Shown here piece after piece: positions 11,611 to 28,768 of a stretch of 64,000 bases of DNA. The position numbers were made by a program, and so were the translations under genes. This DNA comes from Gammaproteobacteria bacterium (GTDB lineage Bacteria > Pseudomonadota > Gammaproteobacteria > Xanthomonadales > Marinicellaceae). Positions within the stretch are counted from its first letter, which is position 1. Every line of letters begins with the position of its first letter. Below the pieces are notes generated by a model that saw nothing but the letters and a program-made list of their open reading frames with translations, did not search any database and had not been told where the DNA came from. The stretch covers positions 1-64,000 of the forward strand of contig JAUIGR010000003.1 in NCBI GenBank assembly GCA_030430025.1, read 5' to 3'.

Positions 11611-12035
11611 TGCGTGTGGAGAGTCAACAGGGTTTCACTTTAATCGAGGTGATTGCTTCATTCACCATTCTGGCTATGACTTTTGCGGTGATTTTAGAAA
11701 TATTGTCACATTCGTCAAGAAACACATTAAAGTCTTCTGAGCAAACTCAAATAGCCTTGTTAGCGCAAAGTAAAATGGATGAAGTGGGTATCTTAATTCC
11801 GATTGAAGAAAGTACCCTCAGTGGTGAATTTGATGATAAAAATAGCTGGTCAATCACTATTGCACCTTATGAGCTGGCTTATGAAGGTGACGTGAAGATG
11901 GGATTTGCGCCAGTTGAGCTATTTAAGGTTGATTTGGTGGTCAGTTGGTTTGATGGTCGTGGTCAGAGTAGAGAGGCTGTGTTCACGACATTGAAAGCCA
12001 TGAGCCCTGATTTTGAAAGAGGTCCGGGTGGTTAA
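11610..12035 (+). CDS. gspI: Minor pseudopilin GspI
   Basis: A 141-aa pseudopilin with leader 'MRVESQQG' before 'FTLIEVIASFTILAM', then the helix-turn region 'ALLAQSKMDEVG' typical of GspI and a short beta domain. GspI nucleates the I-J-K tip complex of the pseudopilus. The gene overlaps gspH by one base and its tail overlaps the start region of gspJ. Confidence 0.92.
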   Translation: MRVESQQGFTLIEVIASFTILAMTFAVILEILSHSSRNTLKSSEQTQIALLAQSKMDEVGILIPIEESTLSGEFDDKNSWSITIAPYELAYEGDVKMGFAPVELFKVDLVVSWFDGRGQSREAVFTTLKAMSPDFERGPGG

Positions 12036-12735: not shown

Positions 12736-13625
12736 GTAGAGGACTATACTATCAAAAGGGTGTTGCTCTGGTATTGGTGTTGTGGATTGCACTATTGATG
12801 AGTGTTATTGCAGGTAGCTATGCATTGTCTGCCAGAACCGAATATGTGCAAGCACGAATGGAATTTGGTAGAGCGCAAGCACGATTTATGGCTGAAGCGG
12901 GGTTGAACCGTGCGGTGTTTGAAATGAGAAATCCAGATCCTGAAACACGCTGGATTGCAGACGGACGACCCTACAAAATGCAGTTAGATGAAGCCGAAAT
13001 AGAGATTAAAATTACTGATGAGTCTGGAAAAATAGACCTCAATCAGGCGTCCGAGGAACTTTTGGTTGGATTATTTGCCTCAGTTGGCATAGAGTTTGAT
13101 GAGGCATTTGAGTTTGTTGATAAAATCATGGACTGGAAAGATGCTGATGAAGAAGTGAGGCTCAATGGTGCAGAAGATGGTGATTATTTTTCCGCCGGAT
13201 ATGCATATGGTGCCAAAGACGCACCTTTTGATACGGTACCTGAATTGGTTCAGGTTATGGACATTGACTATGACTTGTATTTAAAATTAGAGCCTGCCAT
13301 CACAGTTTATTCTGGACGGAACAACATCAATTTAGCATTTGCTCCCAAACAGGCTTTGATGGCTATAGAGGGTGTTTCAGAAGAAATCGCTGATGACTAT
13401 ATCAATCAAAGACGTGACATCGATGATGTCAGTACCGAGCTCCCTTTTTTGGCGGAAGGATATTCAGGACAATTACGGGGTGGTGGTACTACCTTCTCAA
13501 TAGTAAGTACAGCGACTCTTAGCAATGGCCAAACGGCACAGTTAGATGCAACCATAAGAATGGGTGGCAGTTTGAATGGTAAACCCTTCCGGGTTGTCCG
13601 TTGGAGAGATAACGAACACAAATGA
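12732..13625 (+). CDS. gspK: Minor pseudopilin GspK
   Basis: A 297-aa protein starting at GTG with the strong ribosome site 'aaggaga'. The leader 'MSRGLYYQKG' is cut before 'VALVLVLWIALLM'; as usual for GspK, the conserved +5 Glu of other pseudopilins is absent. The large domain includes 'MAEAGLNRAVFEMRNPDP' and 'DESGKIDLNQASEELL', both typical of GspK with its helical insertion. It caps the pseudopilus. The stop overlaps gspL by ATGA. Confidence 0.93.
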   Translation: MSRGLYYQKGVALVLVLWIALLMSVIAGSYALSARTEYVQARMEFGRAQARFMAEAGLNRAVFEMRNPDPETRWIADGRPYKMQLDEAEIEIKITDESGKIDLNQASEELLVGLFASVGIEFDEAFEFVDKIMDWKDADEEVRLNGAEDGDYFSAGYAYGAKDAPFDTVPELVQVMDIDYDLYLKLEPAITVYSGRNNINLAFAPKQALMAIEGVSEEIADDYINQRRDIDDVSTELPFLAEGYSGQLRGGGTTFSIVSTATLSNGQTAQLDATIRMGGSLNGKPFRVVRWRDNEHK

Positions 13626-14755
13626 CAACATTTGCAGAAAAAATCATCAATCCATTAAGTGAATGGTATCGGACTTCCGTTGTTAAGTCGTTTTGGGAGT
13701 GGTGGACAAGTTCGCTTTTAGAGTGGGTGCCAGAAAATAAAAGGAAGTTATTGTTTCCAAACACAGAACAAATTTATATTTTACCTGATGGTGATGATGC
13801 CAAGTTATGGATAAAACAGGACTCTAAAGTCACAATTTTGCCTAATAATGAGGTTGTTGAATCGCATTGGTGGCATCAGTTAAATCACCATGTTCGGTCG
13901 ACTGATATCAAGTCAATGGTTAGTTATTTACTTTCACCAGAAGATGTGCTGATTAGAGAAATTACATTGCCGGCTGCTGCTGCTGGAAACATTGGTTCTG
14001 TATTGCAATATGAGCTGGATAAATACATTCCCTTTAATAAAGAAGACGTGATTTTTTCATATCAAAGTTTGTCCGATGCAGAAAATGCTGAAAAAATTCC
14101 AGTTACTTTGGTAGTTGTCCAAAAATCGTTAATAGAAAAAATTGAGCAAGAGATTAGCAATAAAAGTTTACAGTTGGCGGCTATTGATGTGAATGTCAGT
14201 GATGAAAAGACTCCAAAAGCCATGGGTGTGAATTTATTGACGGAATCTTTGCGGATAAAAAAAGATTGGACCAAAGTCAAAGTCAATTTGGTGTTTTTTA
14301 TTGTCCTTTGTTTAATGGTATGGTTTGTGATGTTCAACTCGTTGGAAAATAAAAATCAGAAAATTGAACGCTTAGAGGTGCTTGCTGATCAGTTAAGAGG
14401 TCAGGCACGAAGGGCTAAGCTATTAGAAACGGAATTAGAGCAGTCAATCAGTGCGGCTAATTTTTTAGGTCACAAAAAAACTGATACTGTCAGTCCAGTA
14501 ATTATTATCAATGAATTGACACGGCTTATACCAAAAAACAGTTATTTAACCAGAATTATATTAGATGATGAGAAGGTGGAAATAGTAGGTCAGTCAGATA
14601 ATGCCAATGCTTTGGTACCCATTTTGAACCAATCCAAACTGTGGTTTGAGCCAAGCATTGTTGGTCAAGTCATGCCAGATGCCCGAACAGGTAAAGAAAA
14701 ATTTACCATCAAGGCTGACCTTAAACTGTCAGAAGAGGTCAATGATGAAGCTTGA
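13622..14755 (+). CDS. gspL: Type II secretion assembly protein GspL
   Basis: A 377-aa bitopic protein. An actin-like cytoplasmic domain (to about residue 215, with 'LPAAAAGNIGSVLQYELDKY', typical of the GspL/PilM-like fold) is followed by a membrane helix (about 218-238, 'VNLVFFIVLCLMVWFVMF') and a periplasmic coiled-coil plus ferredoxin-like domain. Length is like XpsL of Xanthomonas. It links GspE to GspM in the inner-membrane platform. The stop lies just after the gspM start. Confidence 0.88.
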   Translation: MTTFAEKIINPLSEWYRTSVVKSFWEWWTSSLLEWVPENKRKLLFPNTEQIYILPDGDDAKLWIKQDSKVTILPNNEVVESHWWHQLNHHVRSTDIKSMVSYLLSPEDVLIREITLPAAAAGNIGSVLQYELDKYIPFNKEDVIFSYQSLSDAENAEKIPVTLVVVQKSLIEKIEQEISNKSLQLAAIDVNVSDEKTPKAMGVNLLTESLRIKKDWTKVKVNLVFFIVLCLMVWFVMFNSLENKNQKIERLEVLADQLRGQARRAKLLETELEQSISAANFLGHKKTDTVSPVIIINELTRLIPKNSYLTRIILDDEKVEIVGQSDNANALVPILNQSKLWFEPSIVGQVMPDARTGKEKFTIKADLKLSEEVNDEA

Positions 14756-15380
14756 TCAAAGGCTCAACCGTTGGACTGCACTTATGGTCTTGGTACTGAT
14801 ACTGGTAATAGTGTACTTTTTGATGTTTCATCAGTTTTTTGTATCTCATTCTGGTTTGAATGAGACAATTAATGACTTGGATGTTTCAAGACAAAAATAT
14901 ATTAATCAAGCAGTAAAAACGCCAGATCTTAAAGAGAAGCTTCGTAAGGTCAAGGCGATGGTTGGTGATAATGAAGAGTTCTTGAAAGCAGAAACTACAA
15001 ACCTTGGTAATGCAGAGATTACCTCGATACTTAAGCAGATTGTTAATGAACAGATTGTTAATGAACAGGGTGTGGAGAGTTCTGAGTGTCAAATCGTTAG
15101 TCAACAGCCATCCCAAGATCGTAACCCTGATCAATTTGAAAAAGTATTACTGCGTGTTAGAATGCGCTGCCAATTCGAAATTTTCTCAAAAATACTGTCT
15201 CGAATTGAAGAAAACATACCTTTATTGTTTGTTAAAGATTTGCGTATCGAGGCGCAAAATATCAGCCGATATAGACGCAACAAAAACAAAGATGCTAAAC
15301 AGGCTCCTGGTAATTTGGAAATTAGGTTTGAACTTTATGCATACTTAAAGAATGCGATAGAGAAAGAGGATGAAAAATAA
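14745..15380 (+). CDS. gspM: Type II secretion assembly protein GspM
   Basis: A 211-aa inner-membrane protein with one helix near the N-terminus (about residues 12-32) and a periplasmic ferredoxin-like domain. Start 14745 is chosen because 'agagg' lies 6 nt upstream and the product begins 'MKLDQRLNRW', a normal GspM-type N-terminus; longer in-frame starts run back into gspL. It carries an in-frame 15-bp tandem duplication (15036-15065) giving 'QIVNEQIVNEQ'. Assignment rests on position between gspL and gspN/gspD and on topology. Confidence 0.85.
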   Translation: MKLDQRLNRWTALMVLVLILVIVYFLMFHQFFVSHSGLNETINDLDVSRQKYINQAVKTPDLKEKLRKVKAMVGDNEEFLKAETTNLGNAEITSILKQIVNEQIVNEQGVESSECQIVSQQPSQDRNPDQFEKVLLRVRMRCQFEIFSKILSRIEENIPLLFVKDLRIEAQNISRYRRNKNKDAKQAPGNLEIRFELYAYLKNAIEKEDEK

Positions 15381-16077
15381 TTTCATTGCAAATGTGTTGT
15401 TTACATTGATTGGACTGTTTATGTTGGTTGCTGCTGGGCAATTGATGGGTTTGGGTCAGTCAATCAGTGAGTTAAGCGCGGAAACTTTTGATGTTGATGA
15501 ATTGTCAATATTAACTGAGCAGTCTGAGCAAGTGGTTATTGATTCTGATGTTCGAGAACAGAAGATAGAAGAAATGATTGCTGCTCCACTTTTTAACAGC
15601 ACCCGAGAGCCTTATATTGCTGATGAAGAACCTGAGGATCAAGAAATAATTGAAGAGCCAGCTTCGCCTTTGAATGCTCAAGTAACGAGTATCGTCATTA
15701 CTGACGAAAGCAGTTATGTGATGATTAAGGATAATGTCAGCAAAGAACGATTGACATTATCTCAAGGTATGCCATTGGTTGGTGAACAAGGGATTTGGGT
15801 TGTGGCGGCTATTGAGCCAAGAAAGGTCAGATTTGAAGCAGAAGGAATGGAGTCAGTTGAGTTGGAGTTAGAAGTTTTTGGTGGAGAGTTAAGAGGCGGT
15901 GGAGTCAGCGAGAGTAGCAAAAAAGCGCAGCGGAATAAAGCTGAAAGTCGACTAACCAGGGAGCTAAAAAACGAACAAGATGAGCGTAACAATAGTGCGG
16001 AAGAAATACGCAAAAAAATAGCTGAACGGCGTGCAGAGATGCGCAAAAAAGAAGCCGAAAAAAACCAAGAGAAATAA
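15370..16077 (+). CDS. gspN: Type II secretion protein GspN (XpsN-like)
   Basis: A 235-aa bitopic protein with a membrane helix (about residues 5-27) and a periplasmic part. The 'APLFNSTREPY' motif (about 74-84) is followed by a small beta domain (about 98-165) resembling the homology region of GspC. The tail is a highly charged Lys/Glu/Arg helix (about 185-235). In Xanthomonas Xps the gene between M and D is xpsN, which links the platform to the secretin, and the same order occurs here. It overlaps gspM by 11 nt and gspD by one base. It could equally be called a GspC-like protein. Confidence 0.75.
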   Translation: MKNNFIANVLFTLIGLFMLVAAGQLMGLGQSISELSAETFDVDELSILTEQSEQVVIDSDVREQKIEEMIAAPLFNSTREPYIADEEPEDQEIIEEPASPLNAQVTSIVITDESSYVMIKDNVSKERLTLSQGMPLVGEQGIWVVAAIEPRKVRFEAEGMESVELELEVFGGELRGGGVSESSKKAQRNKAESRLTRELKNEQDERNNSAEEIRKKIAERRAEMRKKEAEKNQEK

Positions 16078-18218
16078 TGAACATATATAGTTTTAAAAAA
16101 ATTGCCGTTGGTGCAGCCCTTGCCTCATTATTGGCATGTGCTAGCAATCGGTCAGATTTGCATAAACAACTAGAAAACTCTGATTATCTGGATGGTCTTG
16201 ATTCTGGTAATTATTCTGGTAATGTTTATAAGGTTGATGACCAAGATGATGTCCAAAAAGAGCATGAAATCTATCCGGGTAGCGGCGAATTCATCAACAT
16301 GGAGGCGGCCAAAAAGATTACCAAGGCGATGACAGAGGATGGTGAAGTGACTTTCAACTTTGAAGGCGAACCCTTGCAAGCAGTCGTTCATCTGATTTTG
16401 GGAGAAATACTTAAAGAAAACTATGTGGTTGCTCCTGGGATATCTGGAGAAGTGTCATTTGCTACAGCTAGACCAGTAGCTAAAGATCAAGTATTGCCTA
16501 TTTTAGAAATGCTACTGAGTTGGAATAAAGCTGCATTGGTTGAAGTCGATGGTCGTTTTCATGTGCTCCCACAAGAGCAAGCGATCAAGGGACATTTGAC
16601 ACCAAGAGTGGGTACGGTTGATGCGAAACAGGGATACCAGGTACTGGCTGTGCCATTGACTTATGTTTCTCCAACCGAAATGGAAAAAATATTGGAACCA
16701 TACGCTAAAGATGGCGCCATCGTGAAAGCTGATAACGCACGCAATATCTTATTTCTTTCAGGTACTAACCGTGAATTAAATAATTATATTGATACCATCA
16801 ATATATTTGATGTGGATTGGTTGGCGGGCATGTCAACCGGTATTTTTTACTTGGAGAGAACTGATACGGCAGATATTATTGTCGAACTTGAAGCTTTGTT
16901 TGGTGACAGTGCGGAAACACCATTGGCCGGTATGTTTCGTTTTGTTCCATTGGAACGGTTGAATGGTATTTTAGTGATTACGCCCCAAGAAGATTATCTA
17001 TATCAAGCAAGGCAATGGATAGAACGTTTGGATCGTGCTGATCTTGAAGGTGGTGCTAATTTATACGTATATAGTGTTAAAAATATCAAAGCTGTTGATT
17101 TGGCAGATTATCTGAATGATGTTTTTGGTGGTGGCAGTGGTTCTTCTTCTCGGAAAGCATCATCGAGTAGTACGGCACCTGGTGCTAATGGGAGAGAAGT
17201 CTCATCTCAAGGTGCAAAAAACACAAAAACCAATCAGCGCAGAACAAGCAACAATAATAACAATGATATTCAAATTACTGCTATAGAAGAATCTAACCAG
17301 CTACTTATTAAGGCCGATGTGGGTGATTATGATAAGATCATGTCAGCTATTAAGCGTTTAGATATTGTGCCTTTACAAGTGTTAGTTGAGTTGAAGATTA
17401 TTGAGGTGACTCTGAATGATAGTTTGGAGTATGGGATGGAGTTATTTTTTGGTTCAGCAGTAGGTAGTGATTCAGGTGACAATGGAGGAAGTGGTGATAC
17501 AGGAGATGGTGATACAGGAACAACAAAAGGTTACAATTGGTTTACTGATGCGGCTAGTTCTGGTGCGGGTGGGCTTAATTATAATTTTTTTGGCAGAGAG
17601 GCTGAAGCTCGATTGAGCCTTTTAGAAGGTGAAGGTCGTGTGTCTTTGTTGTCAGCGCCTAGCGTCATGGTCATGAACAATAAAAATGCCACCATAAATG
17701 TAGGTAATCAAGAACCTACAGTGTCGACTCAAGTTGGAGCTATCAACAATAGCGATTTAAGAACAAACACTGTGCGTTACATACAAACAGGTGTCCAAGT
17801 GGATATCACTCCTAGAGTGAATCCTGGAGGATTGGTTTTTATGGAGATTACACAAGATGTTAGCGAAGCAGGGGAACCTCGAGCAGGCAGTGATAACCCA
17901 CCCATTTCAAAACGCGAAATTACCACTGAGATTGCAGTAAAAAGTGGTCAGACCATCATTATGGGTGGTTTAATTAGGGATAGTAACAAGCAAGGAAGGG
18001 ATGGTGTGCCATTTTTAAGTCGTATCCCATTGATTGGTGGTGCGTTTGGCAAAAAGACTAAAAGCAGTTCAAAAACTGAGTTAATGGTGTTGATCACCCC
18101 GACAGTGATAGAAAACCCAGAACAAGCGCGCAGAGCCACTTTAGAATATGCTAAGAAATTTGAAGGACTGAGACCTATTGAACAAAAAGAAAAAGACAGT
18201 GGAGAGGAAAAGGAATGA
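16077..18218 (+). CDS. gspD: Type II secretion outer-membrane secretin GspD
   Basis: A 713-aa secretin with a lipoprotein signal peptide (lipobox 'SLLAC', Cys at about residue 21), so it is probably a self-piloting lipidated secretin like XpsD. Periplasmic N0-N3 ring domains (about 85-430) precede the secretin channel domain (about 440-695), which has 'VGNQEPTVSTQV' and 'AVKSGQTIIMGGLI'. A Gly/Ser/Asn-rich low-complexity insert (about residues 353-400) lies before or within N3, and an acidic Gly/Asp stretch lies near 465-485. It is the final large gene of the operon; the stop overlaps the next lipoprotein gene by ATGA. Confidence 0.96.
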   Translation: MNIYSFKKIAVGAALASLLACASNRSDLHKQLENSDYLDGLDSGNYSGNVYKVDDQDDVQKEHEIYPGSGEFINMEAAKKITKAMTEDGEVTFNFEGEPLQAVVHLILGEILKENYVVAPGISGEVSFATARPVAKDQVLPILEMLLSWNKAALVEVDGRFHVLPQEQAIKGHLTPRVGTVDAKQGYQVLAVPLTYVSPTEMEKILEPYAKDGAIVKADNARNILFLSGTNRELNNYIDTINIFDVDWLAGMSTGIFYLERTDTADIIVELEALFGDSAETPLAGMFRFVPLERLNGILVITPQEDYLYQARQWIERLDRADLEGGANLYVYSVKNIKAVDLADYLNDVFGGGSGSSSRKASSSSTAPGANGREVSSQGAKNTKTNQRRTSNNNNNDIQITAIEESNQLLIKADVGDYDKIMSAIKRLDIVPLQVLVELKIIEVTLNDSLEYGMELFFGSAVGSDSGDNGGSGDTGDGDTGTTKGYNWFTDAASSGAGGLNYNFFGREAEARLSLLEGEGRVSLLSAPSVMVMNNKNATINVGNQEPTVSTQVGAINNSDLRTNTVRYIQTGVQVDITPRVNPGGLVFMEITQDVSEAGEPRAGSDNPPISKREITTEIAVKSGQTIIMGGLIRDSNKQGRDGVPFLSRIPLIGGAFGKKTKSSSKTELMVLITPTVIENPEQARRATLEYAKKFEGLRPIEQKEKDSGEEKE

Positions 18219-18607
18219 GGTTTTTAATTATTATTTTGCTGGTTACCAGTCTTGTTGCTTGCCAATCAGAAAAGCCCATTGAAGAAAGTGCTGTTGATCG
18301 TTGGCAGGCCATTATAGATGGAGATTATGAAACAGCTTATGATTATTTGGTTCCTTCTTATCAGGAGATAGAAACTTTACAGTCATATTCTATTAGATTG
18401 GAAACTGCAAAAATCCATACACAATGGAAGAAAGCTGAATTTGTTTCGAAAGATTGTGAAAAAGAAGTGTGTGATGTGACATTGAAAATTCATTTTGAGT
18501 ATAGCTTTCCTAGGAAGAGTATGGGGAAGACTGAAATGTTTTCACGTCTGCATGAAAAGTGGTTAAATAAAGACGGTAGCTGGTATCATGTGCCTGATAA
18601 GCTTTAA
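18215..18607 (+). CDS. Small lipoprotein at end of T2SS operon
   Basis: A 130-aa protein with a lipoprotein signal (lipobox 'SLVAC', Cys16) and a compact alpha+beta body. 'VDRWQAIIDGDYETAYDYL' resembles NTF2-like or DUF4878-type folds, in which the first helix begins with 'a ... G d y ... a y ... l s'. Two cysteines in 'KDCEKEVCDV' could form a disulfide. It overlaps gspD by ATGA, so it is co-translated with the secretin. A role as accessory lipoprotein for secretin assembly is only a guess from position. Confidence 0.75.
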   Translation: MRFLIIILLVTSLVACQSEKPIEESAVDRWQAIIDGDYETAYDYLVPSYQEIETLQSYSIRLETAKIHTQWKKAEFVSKDCEKEVCDVTLKIHFEYSFPRKSMGKTEMFSRLHEKWLNKDGSWYHVPDKL

Positions 18608-18761: not shown

Positions 18762-20225
18762 ATGAAAAAAAATAAACTAACTACTGCAGTTGTTGCGGGT
18801 TTAGCCGGTGTTGCTGGCATGTCCAATGCGGCTGTACACCTTAGTGATGAGGGTGTTGGTCAAGTTTTGATCTTCCCTTATTACACTGTGAATAATGGTT
18901 TGGTTACCGGTTATTCTATTGTTAATACGACTCGTGATTCTAAAGCAGTTAAAGTTCGTTTCTTAGAGGGTGATCACTCTTTAGAGGTGCTTGACTTTAA
19001 CGTCTATATGTCTCCTTTTGACGTATGGACTGGCGGTATTATCTCTGTTGATTCAACTATTAAAAACGGTGAGCTTGATCATACTGGTGAGCCTTCTGGT
19101 GCTCATATCTCTTTTGATACGACTTGTGCTCCAGGTTTGAGTAAAGATGGTCAGGAGTTCTTGCCTTACGAGATTGAGCTTGATTTGGCTGATACTAATA
19201 AGAGTATGGAGCGTGCGACTCAAGGACACTTTGAGGTGCTTGAAATGGGTACACTGACCGATGGTGGTTTGTATGACACTGCTGCTGACCATGGCAACGA
19301 TGGCATCCCTGCTGACTGCGGTGCTTTTCAAGAAGCTTGGGTTGGTAATGGTGACTGGGTTGTAGATCCATCTTTTGAAATTGAAGACGTAACTGGTGGT
19401 CTATTTGGTTCTGCGAGTTTAGTGAATGTTGCTGAAGGTTTGGCGATGACTTATGATGCAGTTGCAATTGATGATTTTTGGACACTGAATGCAGGTAATC
19501 ACACTGATCCAGGTTCTCTGGCGCCTTCTTTGTCTGAAGCTGACTTGTTGAGTTCTGTGTTTGTTGATGGTGAAGCAGAATTTTCTATATGGCCGTCTGG
19601 CTTCGAATCTGTGTCTGCTCTGTTCATGAGAAAGTCTATTTATAATGAATATGCTTTTGATTCAGGTATTGCTGCTAAGTCAGAGTGGGTTGTTACTTTC
19701 CCAACAAAGAATTTCCACGTGTCTCCTGATCCAGCAGTTCAACCTTTTGTAAACTCTTGGAATGGTCTTACTGCATGTGAAGATGTTTTGATCACTATTT
19801 GGGATCGTGAAGAACAAGTCGATGGTCCAGGGGATTTGCTGATTTCTCCACAGCCACCACAAGGTTCTAGCCCTCAAATTTGTCAAGAAGCTAATGTCAT
19901 TCAGTTTCTTGCTCCAGGTGAAGCGGCAGGCGGTGCTTCTGAGATCTTAGGTTCTACTAACCTGACTACTATCTCTGGTGTGCAAGTTCCTCATGCGACT
20001 GAAAATGGTTGGGCTCGTATGACGTTTAATGGAACCGAAGTTAATAATGTACTATATGATCATATCATGGTTCCTGATTTGGGTACAGCTTTTGAAGGTT
20101 TGCCTGTGACTGGTTTCATGGTGCAGCAGTACACTAATGCACAGGCTCAGCCTGGTTTGTTAGCACAGTATGCTGGCTTGTTCCAACATAAAGGTGATAT
20201 CTTAGTTTCTGTTCTTGGACCTTAA
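18762..20225 (+). CDS. Secreted protein of unknown function (abundant-type export signal)
   Basis: An approximately 487-aa protein with a classical signal peptide ('LTTAVVAGLAGVAGMSNA', cut before 'AVHLSD'). The mature start 'GVGQVLIFPYYTVNNGLVTG' followed by 'SIVNTTRDSKAVKVRF' is a pattern I recall from uncharacterised secreted proteins of marine gammaproteobacteria. A few cysteines (in 'DTTCAPG', 'PADCGAF', 'LTACEDV', 'PQICQE') could pair. Start 18762 is chosen because 'ggag' lies 6 nt upstream; a TTG at 18750 overlaps that site. The gene stands alone between a structured leader and a strong terminator, which suggests high independent expression. Function unknown. Confidence 0.85.
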   Translation: MKKNKLTTAVVAGLAGVAGMSNAAVHLSDEGVGQVLIFPYYTVNNGLVTGYSIVNTTRDSKAVKVRFLEGDHSLEVLDFNVYMSPFDVWTGGIISVDSTIKNGELDHTGEPSGAHISFDTTCAPGLSKDGQEFLPYEIELDLADTNKSMERATQGHFEVLEMGTLTDGGLYDTAADHGNDGIPADCGAFQEAWVGNGDWVVDPSFEIEDVTGGLFGSASLVNVAEGLAMTYDAVAIDDFWTLNAGNHTDPGSLAPSLSEADLLSSVFVDGEAEFSIWPSGFESVSALFMRKSIYNEYAFDSGIAAKSEWVVTFPTKNFHVSPDPAVQPFVNSWNGLTACEDVLITIWDREEQVDGPGDLLISPQPPQGSSPQICQEANVIQFLAPGEAAGGASEILGSTNLTTISGVQVPHATENGWARMTFNGTEVNNVLYDHIMVPDLGTAFEGLPVTGFMVQQYTNAQAQPGLLAQYAGLFQHKGDILVSVLGP

Positions 20226-20256: not shown

Positions 20257-20293
20257 AAAAAGGGCAAGACTTTGTAGTCTTGCCCTTTTTTTT
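20257..20293 (+). terminator. Strong rho-independent terminator
   Basis: A 15-bp perfect stem beginning AAAAAGGGCAAGACT, with a TTGT loop, and a run of eight T at its 3' end. It lies 32 nt after the stop of the secreted-protein gene. Confidence 0.95.
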
Positions 20294-20355: not shown

Positions 20356-21633
20356 GTGAAAAAGATATTGTTAATTAGCGTTCTAGTGGCCACTGTTGGC
20401 TATGCTGAAAAAGTTAGGTTTGAATATGGTAATCCTGTGAAGGATCAATCTGTGGAAATTACGGGGGTGTCTTCTATAGATATTTTATCTGGAGATATTA
20501 AGGTTGTTCCTGCAGATGATGTGTTCATTGTACCGAGTCAGCCTGCTGTCATTGGTATCAATGCAGACAGTTATCAAGCTGAAGTTGGTGATACAATCAA
20601 TGTTAATTGGGAAGTAGCGTTTGCTGATTCTTGCACAGGAACTGTGTCACAAGGTTCAGTATCGGGTTGGGCCGGCACACTTTCCCATTCGATTGGCTTG
20701 CATTCGAAAAATGTAGTGGTGAATAGTTTGCCAGCTACTTTACGGATAAGTTGTAGTAATTTGGATGCTTATACTGCAGGTCAGGTTGTTATTAAAGATC
20801 TAGACATTGAGCTTGTTCAGGAAGTTGTTCAAAATCCGCCTGACGACCCTTACATTAACTATTTTAAAGCCAATGGAGCGAGCAACTCAACTTCGATTCA
20901 GAGTCCGGGTGCTGTTTCTATAACATGGAGTGTAAGTAATGCGGATAGCTGTACAGCTACATCTTCTCCAGTTAATGGGGCTTGGAATCATACCTTTAAT
21001 CCGAATAACTCCAGTTCTAAGCAAGTGAACATATCGCAAACTACAACGCTGAGTTTATTGTGTGGTAATTCCAGCAGAAATGTGCAGGTGATTTTGAATG
21101 AAAATAATGATCCTGATCCACCACCAGGTTGTACGACAAATGTATATCCAGGCCCAGGCCTTGCGATTAAGAATTATAATTATGCAACTTTGAAAGATGG
21201 TAACGAATTTGGTACGACAACCAGTGGTAATGTGGCAATAACTATAAATAATACTAACTTTGCAAGCGTAGAGTTTACTACACCAAATATACAACCATTC
21301 AGTAGGCGAATAAATTTTGTTACTGCGCCTCTTCATATAGGTAATAAGGCTGATAAGACCTCGTTTTCTATTAGTAGTTGTCCTGGCGATTATTCTCAGA
21401 ATGCTGAATGTGTCGTGACTGTTAATAACAATGGTGGTAATGTCAAAATCACTACACTTTCTGGTTATGATGGTGTAGCTGGTTATTGTGTGTTGGATCC
21501 AAACACAACTTACTATATGAATTTTGTCAATAAGGAAAATCCATATGTGGGTTCACCGCAATGTTTAGATCCAGGTGATGCTGTTTGTACGCCCTTTTTC
21601 TCAGAGGGTGAACTAGAATTAGTACCATTTTAA
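20356..21633 (+). CDS. Secreted protein with two Ig-like modules
   Basis: A 425-aa protein starting at GTG ('gagaaag' upstream) with a short signal peptide ('LLISVLVATVGYA'). Two related modules (about residues 65-150 and 165-250) share the pattern of a Trp in 'VNWEV' or 'ITWSV', then 'ADSC' and later 'LRISC' or 'LSLLC', which fits disulfide-bearing Ig-like strands. The C-terminal third (about 255-425) has four or more further cysteines and no recognised domain. The next gene, a parvulin foldase, starts 4 nt after its stop, so the two may be co-expressed and this protein could be a folding client. Substrate or binding role unknown. Confidence 0.8.
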   Translation: MKKILLISVLVATVGYAEKVRFEYGNPVKDQSVEITGVSSIDILSGDIKVVPADDVFIVPSQPAVIGINADSYQAEVGDTINVNWEVAFADSCTGTVSQGSVSGWAGTLSHSIGLHSKNVVVNSLPATLRISCSNLDAYTAGQVVIKDLDIELVQEVVQNPPDDPYINYFKANGASNSTSIQSPGAVSITWSVSNADSCTATSSPVNGAWNHTFNPNNSSSKQVNISQTTTLSLLCGNSSRNVQVILNENNDPDPPPGCTTNVYPGPGLAIKNYNYATLKDGNEFGTTTSGNVAITINNTNFASVEFTTPNIQPFSRRINFVTAPLHIGNKADKTSFSISSCPGDYSQNAECVVTVNNNGGNVKITTLSGYDGVAGYCVLDPNTTYYMNFVNKENPYVGSPQCLDPGDAVCTPFFSEGELELVPF

Positions 21634-21637
21634 TTAA

Positions 21638-22588
21638 ATGTTAAAACTATTTCTTTTATTTGTGGTACTACTGTTCGACCAGGATACTTCCCTGGTCGAA
21701 CAGCATAATGTTCAGGCTTATTTATATGACTTGGATTCTTATGTACATGGATTGAGTCCTGAGAAAAGATATGGCTTTGCAGAAGATAAGGTTCAAATAG
21801 AAAAAAATATTCTTACTATTTTAAATATGAACTTTGTTTATGATTATATTACCCAAAACAAGCTTGATGAGGATCAAGCTTTTGTTAATGGAAAGATAGC
21901 CATTGATGAATTGGACTTGGATATTGATCAAAATTTTATTGGTACGTTAAATCTTGATCATGCTGTCTTTGAAAAGCATTTAAAACATTTTTTGCTGAAA
22001 AAAGAATTTTTTGCGAGGATGCGTTATTGGCTAAAGGATGAGGCGAGACAAAGTTTAGAAAAAGATTTTGCCTACGATTATTTTTTAGCTCATCGTTCAC
22101 AGTATGAGGTTCCTGAAAAAAGACATCTCGGGATGATCACCCTAGATCAAGCACAGACATCAAGTGATGAGGCGATCGCTTTATTAGAAAGACTACTGGA
22201 TGGTGCGTCTTTTTCCAAAATGGCTGTTCAGCATTCGATAGATCAATCAGTAAATCTGAATTTGGGTGATATAAAAACCTATTCGGAAAAACAATTCAAA
22301 TATCCATTTTCTGACAAGGTTTTTGCAAGTGATGTAGGAATTATTCCCACACTGTTTAGCTATGATGATAAGTACTACTTAGTCGAAGTTAAAAAAATAA
22401 TACCAAAAAGAGGGGCGGACTTTAAAGATCATAAAGATCGCATTATTGATGAATTGGTTGAAGAGGTTGCACAAGAAAAAATGCAGACAATTATTGACTC
22501 ATATGTTTCTGCTGATTCTATTAGTATGAATAAGGATGCCATAGAGATGGTTATGGACCGTTATTTGGTTTTTGAAAAAGACAAATAA
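21638..22588 (+). CDS. Periplasmic parvulin-type peptidyl-prolyl isomerase
   Basis: A 316-aa protein with an N-terminal hydrophobic segment (residues 1-13), a helical chaperone-like region (about 20-155) and a parvulin domain (about 160-255). The latter shows the family pattern 'VPEKRHLGMITLDQ', 'LLDGASFSKMAVQHSIDQ' and 'FSDKVFASDVG...YYLVEVKKIIP'. PpiC/SurA-type foldases assist exported proteins. It lies directly between the Ig-like secreted protein and the ABC permease gene, which starts on the next base after its stop, so it is the first enzyme gene of the export operon. The hydrophobic start is short, so it could be membrane-anchored rather than soluble. Confidence 0.8.
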   Translation: MLKLFLLFVVLLFDQDTSLVEQHNVQAYLYDLDSYVHGLSPEKRYGFAEDKVQIEKNILTILNMNFVYDYITQNKLDEDQAFVNGKIAIDELDLDIDQNFIGTLNLDHAVFEKHLKHFLLKKEFFARMRYWLKDEARQSLEKDFAYDYFLAHRSQYEVPEKRHLGMITLDQAQTSSDEAIALLERLLDGASFSKMAVQHSIDQSVNLNLGDIKTYSEKQFKYPFSDKVFASDVGIIPTLFSYDDKYYLVEVKKIIPKRGADFKDHKDRIIDELVEEVAQEKMQTIIDSYVSADSISMNKDAIEMVMDRYLVFEKDK

Positions 22589-23344
22589 ATGTATAAATAT
22601 TTCCTGAGGCGGGAAGTTTCCGATCGGTTTATTGGAAACTCTTCCGCCTTTTTTTGGCTATTGTTTCAGCCCATTGCCACACTGGCTGTTTATTACTTGG
22701 TTTTTGGAATGATCTTTAAAGCCAGAGTACCTGACCTACCTTCAGAGTTATTTGTTGTCTACTTGTCCGCTGGACTTTGGCCTTGGATGGCATTTTCAGA
22801 ATCAGTACTCAGTGCCGCACAGCTGATCATTAATAAGAAGGATTTGATTGGAAAAGTTAAAGTAGATCTTAAAGTGTTACTAGTTAGTCACGTATTGGTA
22901 TCATTCGCGCTACATTTTATTGGACTTATTGCTGTTACGATAATCTTAATCCTGTTGGGACTTGTAGAGATCAATTGGATGTTGTTAATATTGCCCATTC
23001 CCATGTTAACTTTGTTTTTCTTGACATTGACATTGTCATTTATATTTTCTGCTTTACAAGTTTTTAACAGGGATATAAAAAATATTCTGTATGCCGTATT
23101 TCCTCTGTGGTTTTTTCTCACTCCTATCATATATGACGATGGCTTGTTGCCTGATAATCTACATGGTTTTTTGTCATATAACCCAATCTTTTGGGTCATT
23201 GAATCTACACAAAGTATTATGTTGTCAACAAATTCTGTTCCTTGGACCTCATTGGGGATATTAAGTGTTATGGTATTTGTGCTGTTGTATTTTTCTATCC
23301 GTTTTTTTGACAAATTATCCACAGTTTTTGATGATTATTTATGA
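22589..23344 (+). CDS. ABC-2 type exporter permease (polysaccharide export, Wzm/TagG-like)
   Basis: A 251-aa membrane protein with about six helices and the ABC-2 layout of O-antigen or teichoic-acid exporters. Its N-terminal segment 'RREVSDRFIGNSSAFFWLL' and 'LSAGLWPWMAFSESV' match the family pattern of 'l rr d l ... r y r g s ... g ... w'. It forms the channel half of an exporter whose ATPase is the next gene, overlapping by 4 nt (ATGA). Substrates of this family are lipid-linked glycans. A large minus-strand ORF over this gene is a shadow. Confidence 0.9.
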   Translation: MYKYFLRREVSDRFIGNSSAFFWLLFQPIATLAVYYLVFGMIFKARVPDLPSELFVVYLSAGLWPWMAFSESVLSAAQLIINKKDLIGKVKVDLKVLLVSHVLVSFALHFIGLIAVTIILILLGLVEINWMLLILPIPMLTLFFLTLTLSFIFSALQVFNRDIKNILYAVFPLWFFLTPIIYDDGLLPDNLHGFLSYNPIFWVIESTQSIMLSTNSVPWTSLGILSVMVFVLLYFSIRFFDKLSTVFDDYL

Positions 23345-24507
23345 CCAAACCTTTGTTAAAGATCAGTGGTTTAAAAAAATCTTTCCCCTATATTGAAAAT
23401 AATCGTGATCGGATGAGAGGGATGTGGGCTACGTTGAGAGGTCGTGTCAATGATGGTGGCCATGTGGTTTTGAATGGTATTGATTTTACTATTAATAGAG
23501 GTGAATCACTTGCCATTGTTGGCAAGAATGGTGCTGGGAAAAGTACGCTGCTTAAAATTATATCTGGTGTTTTACAACCCACTGAGGGCGTAGTTCAAGT
23601 CAATGGAAGTATAGGAGCTTTACTTGAATTAGGGTCGGGCTTTGATCCTGAATATACTGGGTATGAGAACTTAAAAATGGCGGCAGCTTTGGCTGGCATA
23701 AAAGATAATTTGATTGATAAGTTGAATCGAATGGTTCAGTTTGCCGATATTGGTGATTATTTGCATGAACCAGTTAAAACATATTCATCAGGCATGGTGG
23801 TTCGATTAGGATTTTCTGTGATCACTGAAACACGGCCAGATTTGTTGATTACAGATGAGATTTTGGCGGTTGGTGATGAAGCTTTCCAAATTAAATGCTT
23901 AGCATGGGTTGACAATTACCTTAAAACAGGTGGGACATTATTACTGGTGTCTCATAGCATGTATCATATTCAAACCATATGTAAACATGCACTTTGGTTG
24001 GAAAAAGGGACCGTCAAGCTGCAGGGTGATGCACATAAAGTATCTAAAGCTTATCAACATGAAATTTTAGGTCAACTGGAAAAACTCCAGTATCATCAAG
24101 ATGTTAACACATACCATGTGGCAGGTGTTCAAATCTTGGTTGCTGGGGAGGTGGTGACTGATAATAAAATTAAGATGGGACAGTCATTTGATATCAGCGT
24201 TAAAATCTTTACTCCTGATGGACTTAAACCGGGTTTAAGTATGGGTATAGCAGAATACGATGATCGTGGTATATATGGAACATACTCCAGCGAGTATCAA
24301 TGTCAGCCTCAATGGCTTGACGATCATCATGTTGTTTTTAACATTAAAGTGTTAAAAAATCCGTTGTTACCTGGAGAGTATCGATTGAAACTACACACGA
24401 TGACTCCTGATCAATTACAAATGGTTGATACATTTTTAATTGAACTCCGTGTCGAAGGGAAAACTCGTGAGATGGGTTATTGCCGGATAGAAACAGAGTG
24501 GTCTTAA
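23341..24507 (+). CDS. ABC exporter ATPase with Wzt-like C-terminal domain
   Basis: A 388-aa protein. The nucleotide-binding domain (about residues 5-235) has Walker A 'GKNGAGKST' (about 61-69), signature 'YSSGMVVRLGF' (near 148), Walker B 'DLLITDEILAVGDE' and the switch His in 'LLVSHSMYH'. The C-terminal part (about 245-388) is a beta-sandwich like the carbohydrate-recognition domain of Wzt proteins, which bind the modified end of an O-antigen chain before export. It pairs with the upstream permease (4-nt overlap). A methyltransferase two genes on would fit a chain-terminating modification. Confidence 0.92.
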   Translation: MTKPLLKISGLKKSFPYIENNRDRMRGMWATLRGRVNDGGHVVLNGIDFTINRGESLAIVGKNGAGKSTLLKIISGVLQPTEGVVQVNGSIGALLELGSGFDPEYTGYENLKMAAALAGIKDNLIDKLNRMVQFADIGDYLHEPVKTYSSGMVVRLGFSVITETRPDLLITDEILAVGDEAFQIKCLAWVDNYLKTGGTLLLVSHSMYHIQTICKHALWLEKGTVKLQGDAHKVSKAYQHEILGQLEKLQYHQDVNTYHVAGVQILVAGEVVTDNKIKMGQSFDISVKIFTPDGLKPGLSMGIAEYDDRGIYGTYSSEYQCQPQWLDDHHVVFNIKVLKNPLLPGEYRLKLHTMTPDQLQMVDTFLIELRVEGKTREMGYCRIETEWS

Positions 24508-25311
24508 ATGCAAATCATTGTTCCTGTATATAACGCTTATGATGCGCTGAAAGATTGTGTTCAGTCTCTATTAAAACATAACGCACATGATAAGGTGACA
24601 TTCATTAATGATGGATCAACAGACTCAAAGGTGTCATTACTTTTGCAAAATATTTGTGAAAGAGTGACTACTTGGGATTTGCTAACAAATAAAACCAATT
24701 TGGGTTTTGTCAAAACGGCAAACAGAGGTTTACTCCTTACTGATCAAGATACAGTTTTATTGAATTCTGACACTCTGGTTACAACGGGATGGTTTGATGG
24801 ATTGAAGTGGGCAGCTAAAGAGGTCAAAGAATTGGGAACGGCAACACCATGGTCCAATCATGCAGAAATTTGTTCGTTTCCTGAGACGCTAAAGGAAAAT
24901 AATTTGCCGCTAAATATCGATGCTTTTGCAAAACAATTACAAGAAAAACATCGAGCCACTTACCCAGATATTCCAACAGCAGTTGGTTTTTGTATGCTGA
25001 TTACAGCGGCAGCAAAAAATCGCGTGGGTGTATTTGATGAGCAGACTTTTGGACATGGATATGGAGAAGAAAATGATTTCTCACTTCGAGTCACAGAGGC
25101 AGGGTTACGTAATGTGTTATGTGATAATGTTTATGTTGGACATGTTGGAAACCAGTCATTTCAGGATTTGAACTTGAGACCCAGTGAAGCGACAATGAAA
25201 AGGCTGTTGGTTAAGCACCCTAATTATGATCATCTAGTTGCTCAATTTATTGAAAACGACCCTTTGGCTTCACTCAGACAATCAATCATTGATAAAATAC
25301 CGGGTTTTTAG
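24508..25311 (+). CDS. Family 2 glycosyltransferase
   Basis: A 267-aa GT-A enzyme starting on the base after the ATPase stop. It has the N-terminal 'IIVPVYNAYDALKDCVQSLL', 'FINDGSTD' for nucleotide binding, 'NLGFVKTANRGL' and the DxD-like 'LLNSDTLV' (near residue 88). A later 'GHGYGEENDFSLRVTEAGL' holds the likely acceptor-side ED pair. It is cytoplasmic and transfers a sugar from a nucleotide donor; the specific sugar cannot be told. Confidence 0.9.
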   Translation: MQIIVPVYNAYDALKDCVQSLLKHNAHDKVTFINDGSTDSKVSLLLQNICERVTTWDLLTNKTNLGFVKTANRGLLLTDQDTVLLNSDTLVTTGWFDGLKWAAKEVKELGTATPWSNHAEICSFPETLKENNLPLNIDAFAKQLQEKHRATYPDIPTAVGFCMLITAAAKNRVGVFDEQTFGHGYGEENDFSLRVTEAGLRNVLCDNVYVGHVGNQSFQDLNLRPSEATMKRLLVKHPNYDHLVAQFIENDPLASLRQSIIDKIPGF

Positions 25312-25323
25312 TGACACTTTGCT

Positions 25324-26205
25324 ATGTCAAATGATCAATCTTTAGTATTCACAGGTGAGCGTTTTTTGCCTGAATGTCAGCGTGAAATATGGTATGAACA
25401 TTATCATAGATATCAAATGGTTGCTGATTGGGTAAACAATAAGGTAGTACTTGATGCAGCATGTGGTGAAGGTTATGGCAGTTTTTTGATGGCAAAGAGT
25501 GCTGCGCGAGTATTGGGCGTGGATATTGCTGATGAAGCAATAGAACATGCGAAAAAAACATATCAAAGAAGTAATTTACGTTTTATGCAAGGTGATGTGT
25601 TGAATCTTGATTTGCCGGATAACAGTGTTGATGTAGTGGTTTCTTTTGAAACCATTGAACATTTGGCTGATCACCAATTGTTATTGAAACAATTCAAACG
25701 TGTACTAAAAACGGATGGTTTATTAATTATCAGTACACCTGATAAAGCAGAATACAGCGACAAGACTGGATTTGAGAATGAATATCATGTCAGAGAGTTG
25801 TATCAAAATGAGTTTGCTGAATTGATTGGTAAAGCATTCAAATATACCGAATGGATGGGTCAAAAATTAATGTTTCAATCGGCCATATGGCGAATAAACA
25901 AAGATTTGCATGAAATGAAAATCCATGCTCAAGTCTCCAATCAAGAGACGATGGTCAATAGAATGCCATTTCCACCCTTGTATTTTATTGTTTTGGCTTC
26001 AAATCAACCCATTGAGACTACACATATCAAAGATTGCTATGGTTTCACAGATAAGGCAGAAGCAGTTTATGACCATTACAATGAAATGATTCGAGAATAT
26101 ATATCAGTAGCGAAAAAATTCATGAAACTTAATGACCAACGGGATAAGTGGCAAAAACATCCGGTGATTGGTCGCGTTATTCGTTGGTTTGATAAGGAGG
26201 CATAA
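25324..26205 (+). CDS. Class I SAM-dependent methyltransferase
   Basis: A 293-aa protein. The SAM-binding motif I 'VLDAACGEGYGSFLMA' is at about residues 41-56, with acidic motif II 'VLGVDIADEAIEHA', and motifs 'DNSVDVVVSFETIEHL' and 'RVLKTDGLLIISTPD', typical of glycan or lipid methyltransferases. The C-terminal part (about 215-293) is less conserved. It lies in the glycan export operon, where it may modify a sugar or cap a chain; that role is inferred from position. The stop overlaps the next gene (TAATG). Confidence 0.88.
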   Translation: MSNDQSLVFTGERFLPECQREIWYEHYHRYQMVADWVNNKVVLDAACGEGYGSFLMAKSAARVLGVDIADEAIEHAKKTYQRSNLRFMQGDVLNLDLPDNSVDVVVSFETIEHLADHQLLLKQFKRVLKTDGLLIISTPDKAEYSDKTGFENEYHVRELYQNEFAELIGKAFKYTEWMGQKLMFQSAIWRINKDLHEMKIHAQVSNQETMVNRMPFPPLYFIVLASNQPIETTHIKDCYGFTDKAEAVYDHYNEMIREYISVAKKFMKLNDQRDKWQKHPVIGRVIRWFDKEA

Positions 26206-28004
26206 TGGAATTTGAATTCAATTTCGGTAATCAAACCATTGCACATCCAGAACCTCAGGACATGACACTCTATGCCTCAGTTGAGGGTATTGCTTTACCT
26301 TTGTCTGAAGAAGAGTTGGTGTTTTTACAGTCTGACACTGGATTGAATCATATGATGAGTATGCAAGTTCTTCAAGCCATGAGTTTAACCCAGGTATTTC
26401 AGCCGATGCATCAGCATATTGCAGCGATAGAACATGCCATTCCACAATTGAGAGGACAACGTCAAGCAATTGAAAAAGTCTTGAGTTTCATGAAAAACAA
26501 AGGTTTGTTACGCAGTGCTGATGAGTGGTTGGAAACGCTTAAGAGCAGCCAGCATAACTCGGACAGTAAGTATGGTGGAATGGTGGTAAGAACCTGTCAT
26601 AGACCAGATCAACTGAGTCGTTTACTTGAGTCTGTTGAACAATATCAATCGCTTCATGATTTGAAAGAAGAAGTTTCGGTGTTTGATGATTCGTCAGATG
26701 ATAAAGCACAGAAGGAAAATGAGCGTATATGTCAACAGTCTCCTCTAAAAGTCACATATTATGGTCAAAGTTGGCAACAGCAGTTTGTCGCTATGTTAAT
26801 AGAAGAGTTTCCACAGTATCAACAGGAAATTAGATGGCTGTTGTCTGCCAGAGAAGGGTTTACAGGTGGACGTGTATGGAATTTAGCTTTATTGGCGTTA
26901 GCAGGTAAAAAATTCAGTTTTTTTGATGATGATTTTTTAATACAGCCACGTATTAAAAGTGATAGTAGCTTAAACGACATTGAGCTATTGACAAAAGGTG
27001 AGCTAGGCGTAGGTTTTGGTTTGAATGTTCGCGAAATCAAATCAAATTCCGAGGTTTATTCGGATGATATGCTTAGCCAGTTAAAAGAAGCTTGTGGTAT
27101 GAGTTTGGGTGCTTGGTTGACAGTACACCCAGAAATCAGTGCCAGTAGCCTAGCCGGTGTCAAGTTGAGGGATTTGATTCGTTTGGGCCCAAAAACTCGA
27201 ATCAAATGCACCAATAACGGTACTTGGGGCAGCCCAAGAGCTGAGAGTAACTATTGGCTGTATCAGTTAAAAGGAGAACAAAGACACGCATTCTGGCAAG
27301 ATCGAGAGACCTACCTGGACAATATCGAGGCCTCACATTTATTGCATTATCCCAGCCAATATCAAGCTTTGACTTTGGGTTATTTTGCGCCATCAATGAT
27401 AGATAATGGTCAGATGACACCATTCGCTATGCCCATCAATAAAAATGAAGATCATTTTTTTAACTCTGCAGTGGCAGGTTGTTACCCTGATGATGTGGTG
27501 TTGCATTTTCCGATGATGATGGGTCATCTGCAAGACAGCAAGCGAGATAGAAGCTCAACCAATCACATAGCCCAACGTCCTAATTTCAATCGATTCTTAG
27601 GAGATTATGTACAGTCGGTAGCAGGTCGTTTGCTTTCCAAAGAACCCGCTGCACGACTGAAGGCATTTTCTGCGTTGGTTGAAGATCTGGCGACAACAGA
27701 TGATCAATCTTTAGAGAATTGTCTAAGGGAGTATATGACAAAAATTCGGTCTGATTTGGTGAATCAGTTACAAGCCATTTTAGCTGAGGAGCCGGAAGCG
27801 CCAATTTACTGGCAAGCTGATGTCAGAGAATTGCTTCAAACCAATGGTAAGGCGGTCAAAGAAAACGAGGTACCTGTATTAAATGGCTGGCCGGAAGATA
27901 TGGATATACAAGCTTGTTTAGCAAAAGCGCGTTTCGATTTACAAGAAGTGGCGAGCGCAATGCGTGTTTGGCCTGAGTTATGGCAGTTTTGTCAAACGCA
28001 GTAA
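26205..28004 (+). CDS. Unrecognised 599-aa protein with GT-A-like centre
   Basis: No family is recognised with confidence. Three parts are visible. Residues 1-115 are mostly helical, and 'MHQHIAAIEHAIPQLRGQRQ...VLSFMKNKGLL' resembles a winged-helix or PqqD-like fold. A central region (about 122-330) begins 'YGGMVVRTCHRPDQLSRLLE', continues with 'SVFDDSSDD' and contains 'FSFFDDDFLIQPR' (Asp triplet near 240), as expected for a nucleotide-sugar-binding GT-A fold. The C-terminal 270 residues are unassigned, rich in helices, with 'MMMGHLQDSKRDRSS'. It overlaps the methyltransferase by one base and the next glycosyltransferase by 25 nt, so it belongs to the glycan operon. A glycosyltransferase is likely but unproven. 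Confidence 0.7.
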   Translation: MEFEFNFGNQTIAHPEPQDMTLYASVEGIALPLSEEELVFLQSDTGLNHMMSMQVLQAMSLTQVFQPMHQHIAAIEHAIPQLRGQRQAIEKVLSFMKNKGLLRSADEWLETLKSSQHNSDSKYGGMVVRTCHRPDQLSRLLESVEQYQSLHDLKEEVSVFDDSSDDKAQKENERICQQSPLKVTYYGQSWQQQFVAMLIEEFPQYQQEIRWLLSAREGFTGGRVWNLALLALAGKKFSFFDDDFLIQPRIKSDSSLNDIELLTKGELGVGFGLNVREIKSNSEVYSDDMLSQLKEACGMSLGAWLTVHPEISASSLAGVKLRDLIRLGPKTRIKCTNNGTWGSPRAESNYWLYQLKGEQRHAFWQDRETYLDNIEASHLLHYPSQYQALTLGYFAPSMIDNGQMTPFAMPINKNEDHFFNSAVAGCYPDDVVLHFPMMMGHLQDSKRDRSSTNHIAQRPNFNRFLGDYVQSVAGRLLSKEPAARLKAFSALVEDLATTDDQSLENCLREYMTKIRSDLVNQLQAILAEEPEAPIYWQADVRELLQTNGKAVKENEVPVLNGWPEDMDIQACLAKARFDLQEVASAMRVWPELWQFCQTQ

Positions 28005-28768
28005 AGAAAATTGATGTGGTGGTGGTCAACTATAATGGTGGAGACTACATCAAATCCTTAGTGACGTCGTTGGTCCAAGATCAAAATATTTACATGACTG
28101 TTGTTGATAATGCCTCTTCAGACCACTCAATGGCAAAAATAGACGCTTTATCTAACAAGTGTATCTATAATAATGAGAATGTTGGGTTTGCGACAGCTTG
28201 CAACCAGGGAGCAGCCTGTGGCCATGCTGATGTCATTGCGTTCATCAACCCTGATTGTCAAATTGATATTCAACAGCTGTACCAGCTTTATGATCAGTTG
28301 ATACGATCACAGCATGTATTAATGGGTTGTCATGTGACCAATTTTGATGGTGGATTGCAGCGTGGTACTTGGCGCAGGTTACCCAATTTGTTGAGAGTTT
28401 TAGTTACTGTAACTGGTCTCGAACGTTTGGGTTTGCAAGGGGTGAATTTAACATCTCCAGCAAATCACATTACAGCAGTCAATGGGGCGTGTTTTATTGT
28501 TAAGAGATCAGCATTTGAATCGGTCAATGGTTATGATTCGGCTTTTCCATTACATTTTGAAGATTTAGACTTGTTTCAACGACTGCTCAACCAGGGGTAT
28601 ACATTAGGCTATGCAGCTGATGTCAAGGTCAAGCATATAAAAGGCCAGGCCAGTAGTGATGACCAGCAAGTGACGCTATGGAAGCGTCAAGGATTGATTC
28701 GATATTTTGAAAAACATCGACCTCGTTGGGAACAATTTATTTTACGTCTTTTGTTAAAGCTAAAATAA
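27980..28768 (+). CDS. Family 2 glycosyltransferase (rhamnosyltransferase-like)
   Basis: A 262-aa GT-A enzyme with 'VVVVNYNGGDYIKSLVTSL', 'VVDNASSD', 'NVGFATACNQGA', 'AFINPDCQ' (DxD-equivalent) and, later, 'HFEDLDLFQRLLNQGY' carrying the acidic catalytic pair. This pattern matches GT2 members often annotated as rhamnosyltransferases. The start at 27980 overlaps the previous gene by 25 nt; no later start keeps the first beta strand. The last 32 nt overlap the end of rsmI on the opposite strand. Confidence 0.88.
   Translation: MAVLSNAVKKIDVVVVNYNGGDYIKSLVTSLVQDQNIYMTVVDNASSDHSMAKIDALSNKCIYNNENVGFATACNQGAACGHADVIAFINPDCQIDIQQLYQLYDQLIRSQHVLMGCHVTNFDGGLQRGTWRRLPNLLRVLVTVTGLERLGLQGVNLTSPANHITAVNGACFIVKRSAFESVNGYDSAFPLHFEDLDLFQRLLNQGYTLGYAADVKVKHIKGQASSDDQQVTLWKRQGLIRYFEKHRPRWEQFILRLLLKLK

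Follow-up and report, generated by a model that had tools for sequence, protein, structure and literature searches.

Proteins of Porphyromonas are anchored to A-LPS, and in Aeromonas and Caulobacter the surface-layer (S-layer) protein is secreted and held by the O-antigen. Here, we describe a locus from a Gammaproteobacteria bacterium of the family Marinicellaceae, located at positions 20356-28768 of a window of 64,000 nucleotides (the whole stretch of DNA that was analyzed; assembly GCA_030430025.1, contig JAUIGR010000003.1), in which eight genes encoding an immunoglobulin (Ig)-like cysteine-rich protein, a parvulin-family protein, a Wzm-like permease, a Wzt-like ATPase, two GT2 glycosyltransferases, a methyltransferase and a 599-residue protein follow a type II secretion system (T2SS) operon and a gene here called sec. 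With the T2SS of Acinetobacter, which works with dedicated membrane-associated chaperones, this locus may share chaperones that are specific to T2SS substrates (PMC4713064), with GlyGly-CTERM/rhombosortase and the T2SS of Vibrio cholerae a C-terminal tag on T2SS-handled proteins and their surface retention (PMC6219818), with the A-LPS and type IX secretion system (T9SS) of Porphyromonas (PMC3684754) the possibility that secreted proteins are anchored to a glycan which is itself exported, and with PEP-CTERM/EpsH a C-terminal signal recognized from its phylogenetic profile against gene families and a link to exopolysaccharide (PMC1569441), as far as the excerpts of these reports go. Judging by titles or the beginnings of abstracts, the literature searches made listed nothing that describes the arrangement reported here.

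The locus is conserved in the order Lysobacterales and is not a local accident, its sec, Ig-like and parvulin genes diverge together, the parvulin has lost its catalytic residues in Marinicella, and a C-terminal tag, D[LI]IFxDGFE, co-occurs with the locus among genomes. The association of tag and locus together with the conserved gene set hints at a surface-display system, and our leading explanation, which we hold tentatively, is a T2SS-linked locus that displays surface proteins and exports a glycan of its own. Both sec and the Ig-like protein would cross the inner membrane by Sec, would be folded or held by the neighboring parvulin-family protein and would exit through the adjoining T2SS. 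The GT2 enzymes and the 599-residue protein, which is predicted to have a GT-A fold, would build a glycan that is perhaps capped by the methyltransferase and exported by Wzm/Wzt, with the Wzt C-terminal domain reading the glycan end. The exported proteins and a larger set of proteins, for which the tag may serve as an address, would stay at the surface on or within this glycan as an anchor.

Among 62 named Lysobacterales loci, only the 40 with 10 kb of upstream sequence were used for counts of gene content and order. All 40 show the order sec, Ig, parvulin, Wzm, Wzt and last GT2 within a span of 9.5-12.7 kb. A preliminary description of the locus, made from the sequence alone, had named a lack of conservation of the parvulin and Ig-like genes beside the exporter as a refuting condition; in the loci counted, the two genes are never parted from it. 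The small lipoprotein-like gene is kept in 39 of these loci, GspD and the methyltransferase in 38 each and the first GT2 in 17. GspD precedes the cluster wherever it was found, and in the other two loci (L147 and L153) the fetched stretch or the contig stops near the position at which GspD is expected. Holders of the locus include by name Marinicella, Dokdonella, Tahibacter and Pseudofulvimonas, and profiles of the cluster find the same gene set in other families of the order. In 61 genomes, the window genome and 60 relatives, matches were obtained for the 599-residue protein in 50, for sec in 55, for the parvulin in 43 and for the Ig-like protein in 19; many of the 43 are other parvulins, and these single-sequence searches miss the Ig-like protein and the parvulin because both evolve fast. 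The 599-residue protein is 58-61% identical to its counterparts in named Marinicella species and 69% identical to that of a nearer metagenome-assembled genome. With Marinicella as the nearest named species, the window genome belongs to this genus or stands close to it. In the genome families f2 and f12, which we take to be Xanthomonadaceae and Rhodanobacteraceae (an unproven assignment), a profile of this protein scores above 600 bits in 6 of 68 genomes (G043, G060, G079, G111, G126, and G158), and the same six also hold sec.

Open reading frame (ORF) calls place the eight cluster genes on the + strand at the coordinates given in the preliminary description, and its account of co-directional genes with small gaps or overlaps holds, the successive distances being 4, 0, -4, 0, 12, -1, and -25 nt. 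The parvulin had been placed at the head of the operon. This is ruled out: the Ig-like gene (20356..21633, GTG start) begins the unit, because a terminator-like hairpin with a T run (20264..20293, +) separates it from sec upstream (18762..20225, +). This hairpin is GC-rich and followed by eight T on the + strand; one scan reported it on the - strand. Further upstream lies the T2SS operon (7778..18218, +), which reads GspE-F-G-H-I-J-K-L-M-N/C-D and in which all names other than GspD were assigned by reading the sequence. GspD (16077-18218) matches the Pfam families Secretin (2.4e-47) and type_II_gspD_N0 (4.5e-8), so that a T2SS secretin adjoins the locus, and is followed by the small lipoprotein-like gene (18215..18607, +). 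Neither this adjoining operon nor the C-terminal tag formed part of the preliminary description.

Both proteins encoded around the hairpin have signal-like N-termini. The Ig-like protein gave no Pfam or NCBIfam match up to an E-value of 0.1, and its structure model is mostly beta, with largely Ig-type domains among the PDB matches listed by Foldseek. The best VIA Z score was 8.7 and some rows were domains of a clostridial toxin; since the matching folds are common beta arrangements, no function is drawn from them. Eight Cys residues are invariant across 20 aligned members. The C-terminal part of the Ig-like protein recurs with 49-54% identity in separate proteins of the window genome (G000:C37 and G000:C20; L217 and L216).

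In 12 Marinicella genomes, mean identity is 31% for the parvulin, 33% for the Ig-like protein, 57% for sec, 47% for the last GT2 and 58-63% for Wzt, the first GT2, the methyltransferase and the GT-A protein. Co-divergence was measured as the correlation of distances after removal of the trend of slow core genes (linear and quadratic) and compared with 2000 permutations. In Marinicella (n = 11) the correlations are 0.74 for sec and Ig, 0.75 for Ig and parvulin and 0.66 for sec and parvulin, on the Dokdonella side (n = 22) 0.69, 0.46, and 0.48, respectively, and each of the six values was reached in 0 of 2000 permutations. In the same two sets Wzm gives -0.07 to 0.16 with sec, Ig and parvulin, though its gene adjoins that of the parvulin, and the last GT2 correlates negatively with the protein genes throughout. 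In Marinicella the lipoprotein gene correlates at 0.62 with sec, at 0.41 with Ig and at 0.31 with parvulin; on the Dokdonella side its values are negative. Because sec, Ig and parvulin diverge together, with the glycan genes following at most weakly, the parvulin appears to be a chaperone dedicated to its neighbors. The co-divergence in two clades thus bears out the earlier suggestion that a foldase is linked to a specific exported protein; the further suggestion that folding is linked to glycan export finds support in the conserved gene order only, with the weak or missing correlation of the glycan genes and three genomes with divided loci speaking against it. In one genome (G006, locus L101), Wzt, methyltransferase and GT-A protein are 66-70% identical to those of the window and Ig and parvulin 26-27%, and the latter two seem to have been exchanged together.

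The parvulin-family protein (21638..22588) has a hydrophobic N-terminus and matches Rotamase_3 with 37.2 bits against a cut-off of 22.5 (4.7e-9). Among proteins of solved structure, Campylobacter cell-binding factor 2 (3rfw; 1.4e-11) and HP_0175 (6.2e-10) come closest in sequence. The pair of histidines that we take to form the parvulin catalytic site is complete in both generic references and in 40 of 52 sequences of the order from outside Marinicellaceae; within this family, it is complete in 2 of 7 sequences from outside Marinicella and in none of the 12 Marinicella sequences. The window parvulin carries M and Y at these positions. As the gene was kept while the catalytic histidines were lost, a role of the Marinicella parvulin as chaperone is more likely than one as isomerase.

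The tag is defined by proteins that end in FxDGFE, preceded by D[LI]I; it was searched as FxDGFE followed by a stop written TRR, so that TGG passes as well. The window genome contains 11 matches, all with true stops. Six of them belong to complete ORFs whose N-termini look signal-like under a crude hydropathy criterion, a contig end truncates another, and the ORFs of the remaining four are short or broken. The proteins that carry the tag are diverse in kind. We read 40 different tagged ORFs that end in true stops, taken from one place per genome in 30 genomes and from the window genome itself; 37 of these have at least 100 residues, with some paralogues among them. Outside the searched letters these carry D or E at position -9 in 32 of 37 cases and I, L, V or M at position -7 in all 37, and only one has a hydrophobic 19-mer within its last 60 residues. 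The tag ends at the stop codon and does not have the tripartite build of motif, hydrophobic segment and basic tail that defines PEP-, GlyGly-, and MYXO-CTERM signals. Choice-of-anchor domains sit before varied anchors, and the tagged protein of the window, which lies outside the locus (39747..41099, +) and ends in PDIIFEDGFE, contains an NCBIfam choice-of-anchor Q domain before its tag (55.7 bits, cut-off 25). Of two further tagged proteins, one reaches 22.8 bits with this model, below the cut-off, and the other gives no match. The ORF at 41490-42725 is related to the tagged protein of the window, both having a signal-like N-terminus, and ends in IIFEDDFDG, possibly a decayed or variant tag.

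In 200 genomes of the order, at least one tag match occurs in 87. Two or more matches were counted in 66 of 123 genomes with sec and in 3 of 77 without it; at a completeness of at least 90% the counts are 52 of 96 and 0 of 67. The three sec-negative genomes with two or more matches are 67-84% complete; G026 holds the GT-A protein, G099 holds fragments of it, and the third is G072. Three other sec-negative genomes have a single match (G114, G151, and G182). In family f2 (35 genomes), G111 alone has sec and the GT-A gene; it carries the full locus and 20 tag matches and is the only f2 genome with more than one. Outside the order, 364 genomes of the class were searched: a single match was seen in 8, in one case with TGG in place of a stop, and no genome had two. 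The 7873 stop-to-stop ORFs of the scanned loci include two tagged ones, both downstream of the locus genes in L164 (15037-17673 and 17763-20390, +), with 879 and 876 residues and the ending IFRDGFE. In the literature, no description of a C-terminal DGFE motif and nothing on protein sorting in Rhodanobacteraceae was found.

For the glycan half of the locus, Pfam matches agree with the families assigned before to parvulin, permease, ATPase, GT2 enzymes and methyltransferase. The permease (22589..23344) matches ABC2_membrane above the cut-off (1.9e-7) and the ATPase (23341..24507) matches ABC_tran (5.5e-21), its best models being those of exporters for teichoic acid and galactan, none of which reaches its equivalog cut-off; an ABC-2 permease is thus paired with a polysaccharide-type ATPase, as in Wzm/Wzt polysaccharide export. 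The Wzt-type C-terminal domain, Wzt_C, is over the cut-off of 30.4 bits in one of eight members scanned: the window protein scores 17.3 bits, and of its seven relatives one lies above, three lie below and three have no listed match. The first (24508..25311) and the last (27980..28768) GT2 gene match Glycos_transf_2, and the class I methyltransferase (25324..26205) matches Methyltransf_11 (4.5e-25).

The 599-residue protein (26205..28004) had been described as of unclear family, which its GT-A fold rules out. Its AlphaFold2 model (pLDDT 90.4) superimposes over residues 118-599 on rice UAM2 (8cid) with a VIA Z score of 20.5, a root-mean-square deviation (rmsd) of 4.1 and 315 aligned residues, and on 7xps with Z 19.6, rmsd 3.8 and 306 aligned residues, structures of MtdL ranging from Z 19.0 to 19.6 and other GT-A families reaching 14.2 and below. 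The predicted model thus has the overall fold of GT75, i.e., GT-A part, core and C-terminal helices. GT75 enzymes interconvert NDP-pyranoses and furanoses (NDP, nucleoside diphosphate) and are described, in the excerpt available, as having a DDD motif, a His that binds metal and an Arg that is glycosylated (PMC9937993). All 11 close sequences of the 599-residue protein keep D241-D243, D416 and H441, which fit by spacing Asp109-111, Asp260 and His287 of MtdL. Likeness to MtdL and plant UAM therefore extends to the fold, the DDD motif and the later D and H at similar spacing; the 599-residue protein differs by an extra N-terminal domain, by a DDD motif that is lost in several distant members (22-member set), and apparently by the absence of an invariant Arg at positions 244-366 of the 11 close sequences, where, with spacing alone as a guide, Arg159 of MtdL would be expected (PMC9937993). 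The N-terminal domain (residues ~20-118) gave an hhalign probability of 19.8% with PqqD/RRE, a likeness suggestive by eye only. A Pfam scan of the 22 family members gave weak glycosyltransferase and chance matches only, and a sequence search of the PDB with the family nothing below an E-value of 0.19. Judged by the model, this is a GT75-like GT-A protein, either transferase or mutase.

Several observations weigh against the display of surface proteins by this locus. No tag match was found in 42 of the 123 sec-positive genomes, namely 38 of 58 in families f8 and f9 and in addition G020, G028, G060, and G079, and as the genomes are related, Fisher values overstate their independence and are descriptive only. 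None of the sec, Ig, parvulin or lipoprotein ORFs in the scanned loci ends in the tag. The GT-A protein was considered as the factor that the tag tracks and rejected, since G038, G048, G089, G101, and G180 have at least two tag matches without a match to it. In none of the 8 loci read from f7, f8, and f9 does the GT-A gene lie between those of the methyltransferase and the last GT2. Joint replacement of the neighbors sec, Ig and parvulin by recombination could explain part of their co-divergence. Inclusion of G006, whose contig carries no sec, raises Wzm to 0.31 with Ig and 0.37 with parvulin (n = 12), values reached in 154 and 118 of 2000 permutations; the remaining glycan genes do not co-diverge with the protein genes. 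Among nine cluster proteins scanned with Pfam and NCBIfam, none matches a sortase or exosortase family. Finally, the cluster lies in two pieces in G060 and G035, the latter having T2SS, sec, Ig and parvulin in one place and Wzm, Wzt and glycosyltransferase in another, and in G158 the ~24 kb upstream of the glycan half contain neither sec nor Ig nor parvulin, the other half not being located. These divided loci (L085, L086, L209, L212, L231, and L275) are suited to separating the roles of the two halves.

The divided loci, the ordinary nature of the component families and the weak or missing co-divergence of glycan and protein genes speak for the chief rival, a usual cluster for an ABC-exported O-antigen or similar polysaccharide that became fixed by descent behind the T2SS, with Ig and parvulin belonging to the T2SS side and unrelated to the glycan. 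This is a serious possibility, if on balance a doubtful one, for the gene order is kept in every locus counted and in other families, the six f2/f12 genomes with sec are also the ones with the GT-A gene, and parvulin and Wzm genes abut in the window. Their abutting inside a unit headed by the Ig-like gene speaks likewise against a parvulin that acts as substrate-specific T2SS chaperone for sec and Ig only, comparable to the Acinetobacter pairs, with tag and glycan as separate matters. The co-divergence of the three genes, their position after gspD and the retention of the parvulin gene despite lost catalytic residues fit such a chaperone well, but the co-occurrence of tag and locus would be left unexplained, and we consider it unlikely. 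Least probable, and by a rather low estimate, is that sec is an S-layer protein which leaves the cell by the T2SS and is retained through the O-antigen. The sec gene occurs at the locus in all 40 cases counted, with 9 matches in the window genome and in multiple copies with adjoining paralogues in some genomes; on the other side, several genomes have a single match, and sec matches no family in Pfam or NCBIfam.

A surface-display locus with its own glycan thus remains our preferred, tentative explanation. The more specific claim of an unrecognized surface-sorting system in Lysobacterales for which D[LI]IFxDGFE serves as address tag, with exit through the T2SS, fixing to the Wzm/Wzt glycan and sec, Ig and parvulin as dedicated machinery, is in our judgment rather improbable as a whole. 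If true, it would add a route from T2SS to glycan for keeping secreted proteins on Gram-negative cells and provide a short tag for predicting surface proteins. Even if the tag is unrelated, the co-diverging trio of sec, Ig and parvulin represents a testable set of substrates and chaperone.

Elsewhere in the window, reading of the sequence suggests a large metalloprotease-like protein with repeated D-rich segments and no tag at its end (51984-55160, -), and HPPD-, homogentisate dioxygenase-, and FAH-like genes for tyrosine breakdown in a row (33006-36229).

A phenotype comparable to the proposed retention is found in a Wenzhouxiangella strain, whose proteolytic activity is cell-bound and absent from the medium and for which the authors, in the part of the report available, supposed outer-membrane anchoring and a possible role of the T2SS (PMC7691419); the comparison concerns the phenotype alone. 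The differences from the systems named at the outset, again within the excerpts of these reports, lie in the components. In Acinetobacter the chaperones are dedicated to T2SS substrates (PMC4713064). The candidate chaperone described here has a parvulin fold and is encoded inside a glycan-export unit. GlyGly-CTERM consists of three parts, a hydrophobic region and positively charged residues among them (PMC6219818), whereas FxDGFE ends the protein and 36 of 37 tagged proteins lack a hydrophobic 19-mer in their last 60 residues. The locus differs from PEP-CTERM/EpsH by another tag and by cluster proteins without an exosortase match (PMC1569441), and from the Porphyromonas system by cluster proteins that include no sortase and by a T2SS, not a T9SS, beside the locus (PMC3684754). 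In comparison with Wzm/Wzt polysaccharide export as such, the permease and ATPase pair of this locus lies together with a T2SS, secreted proteins and a parvulin.

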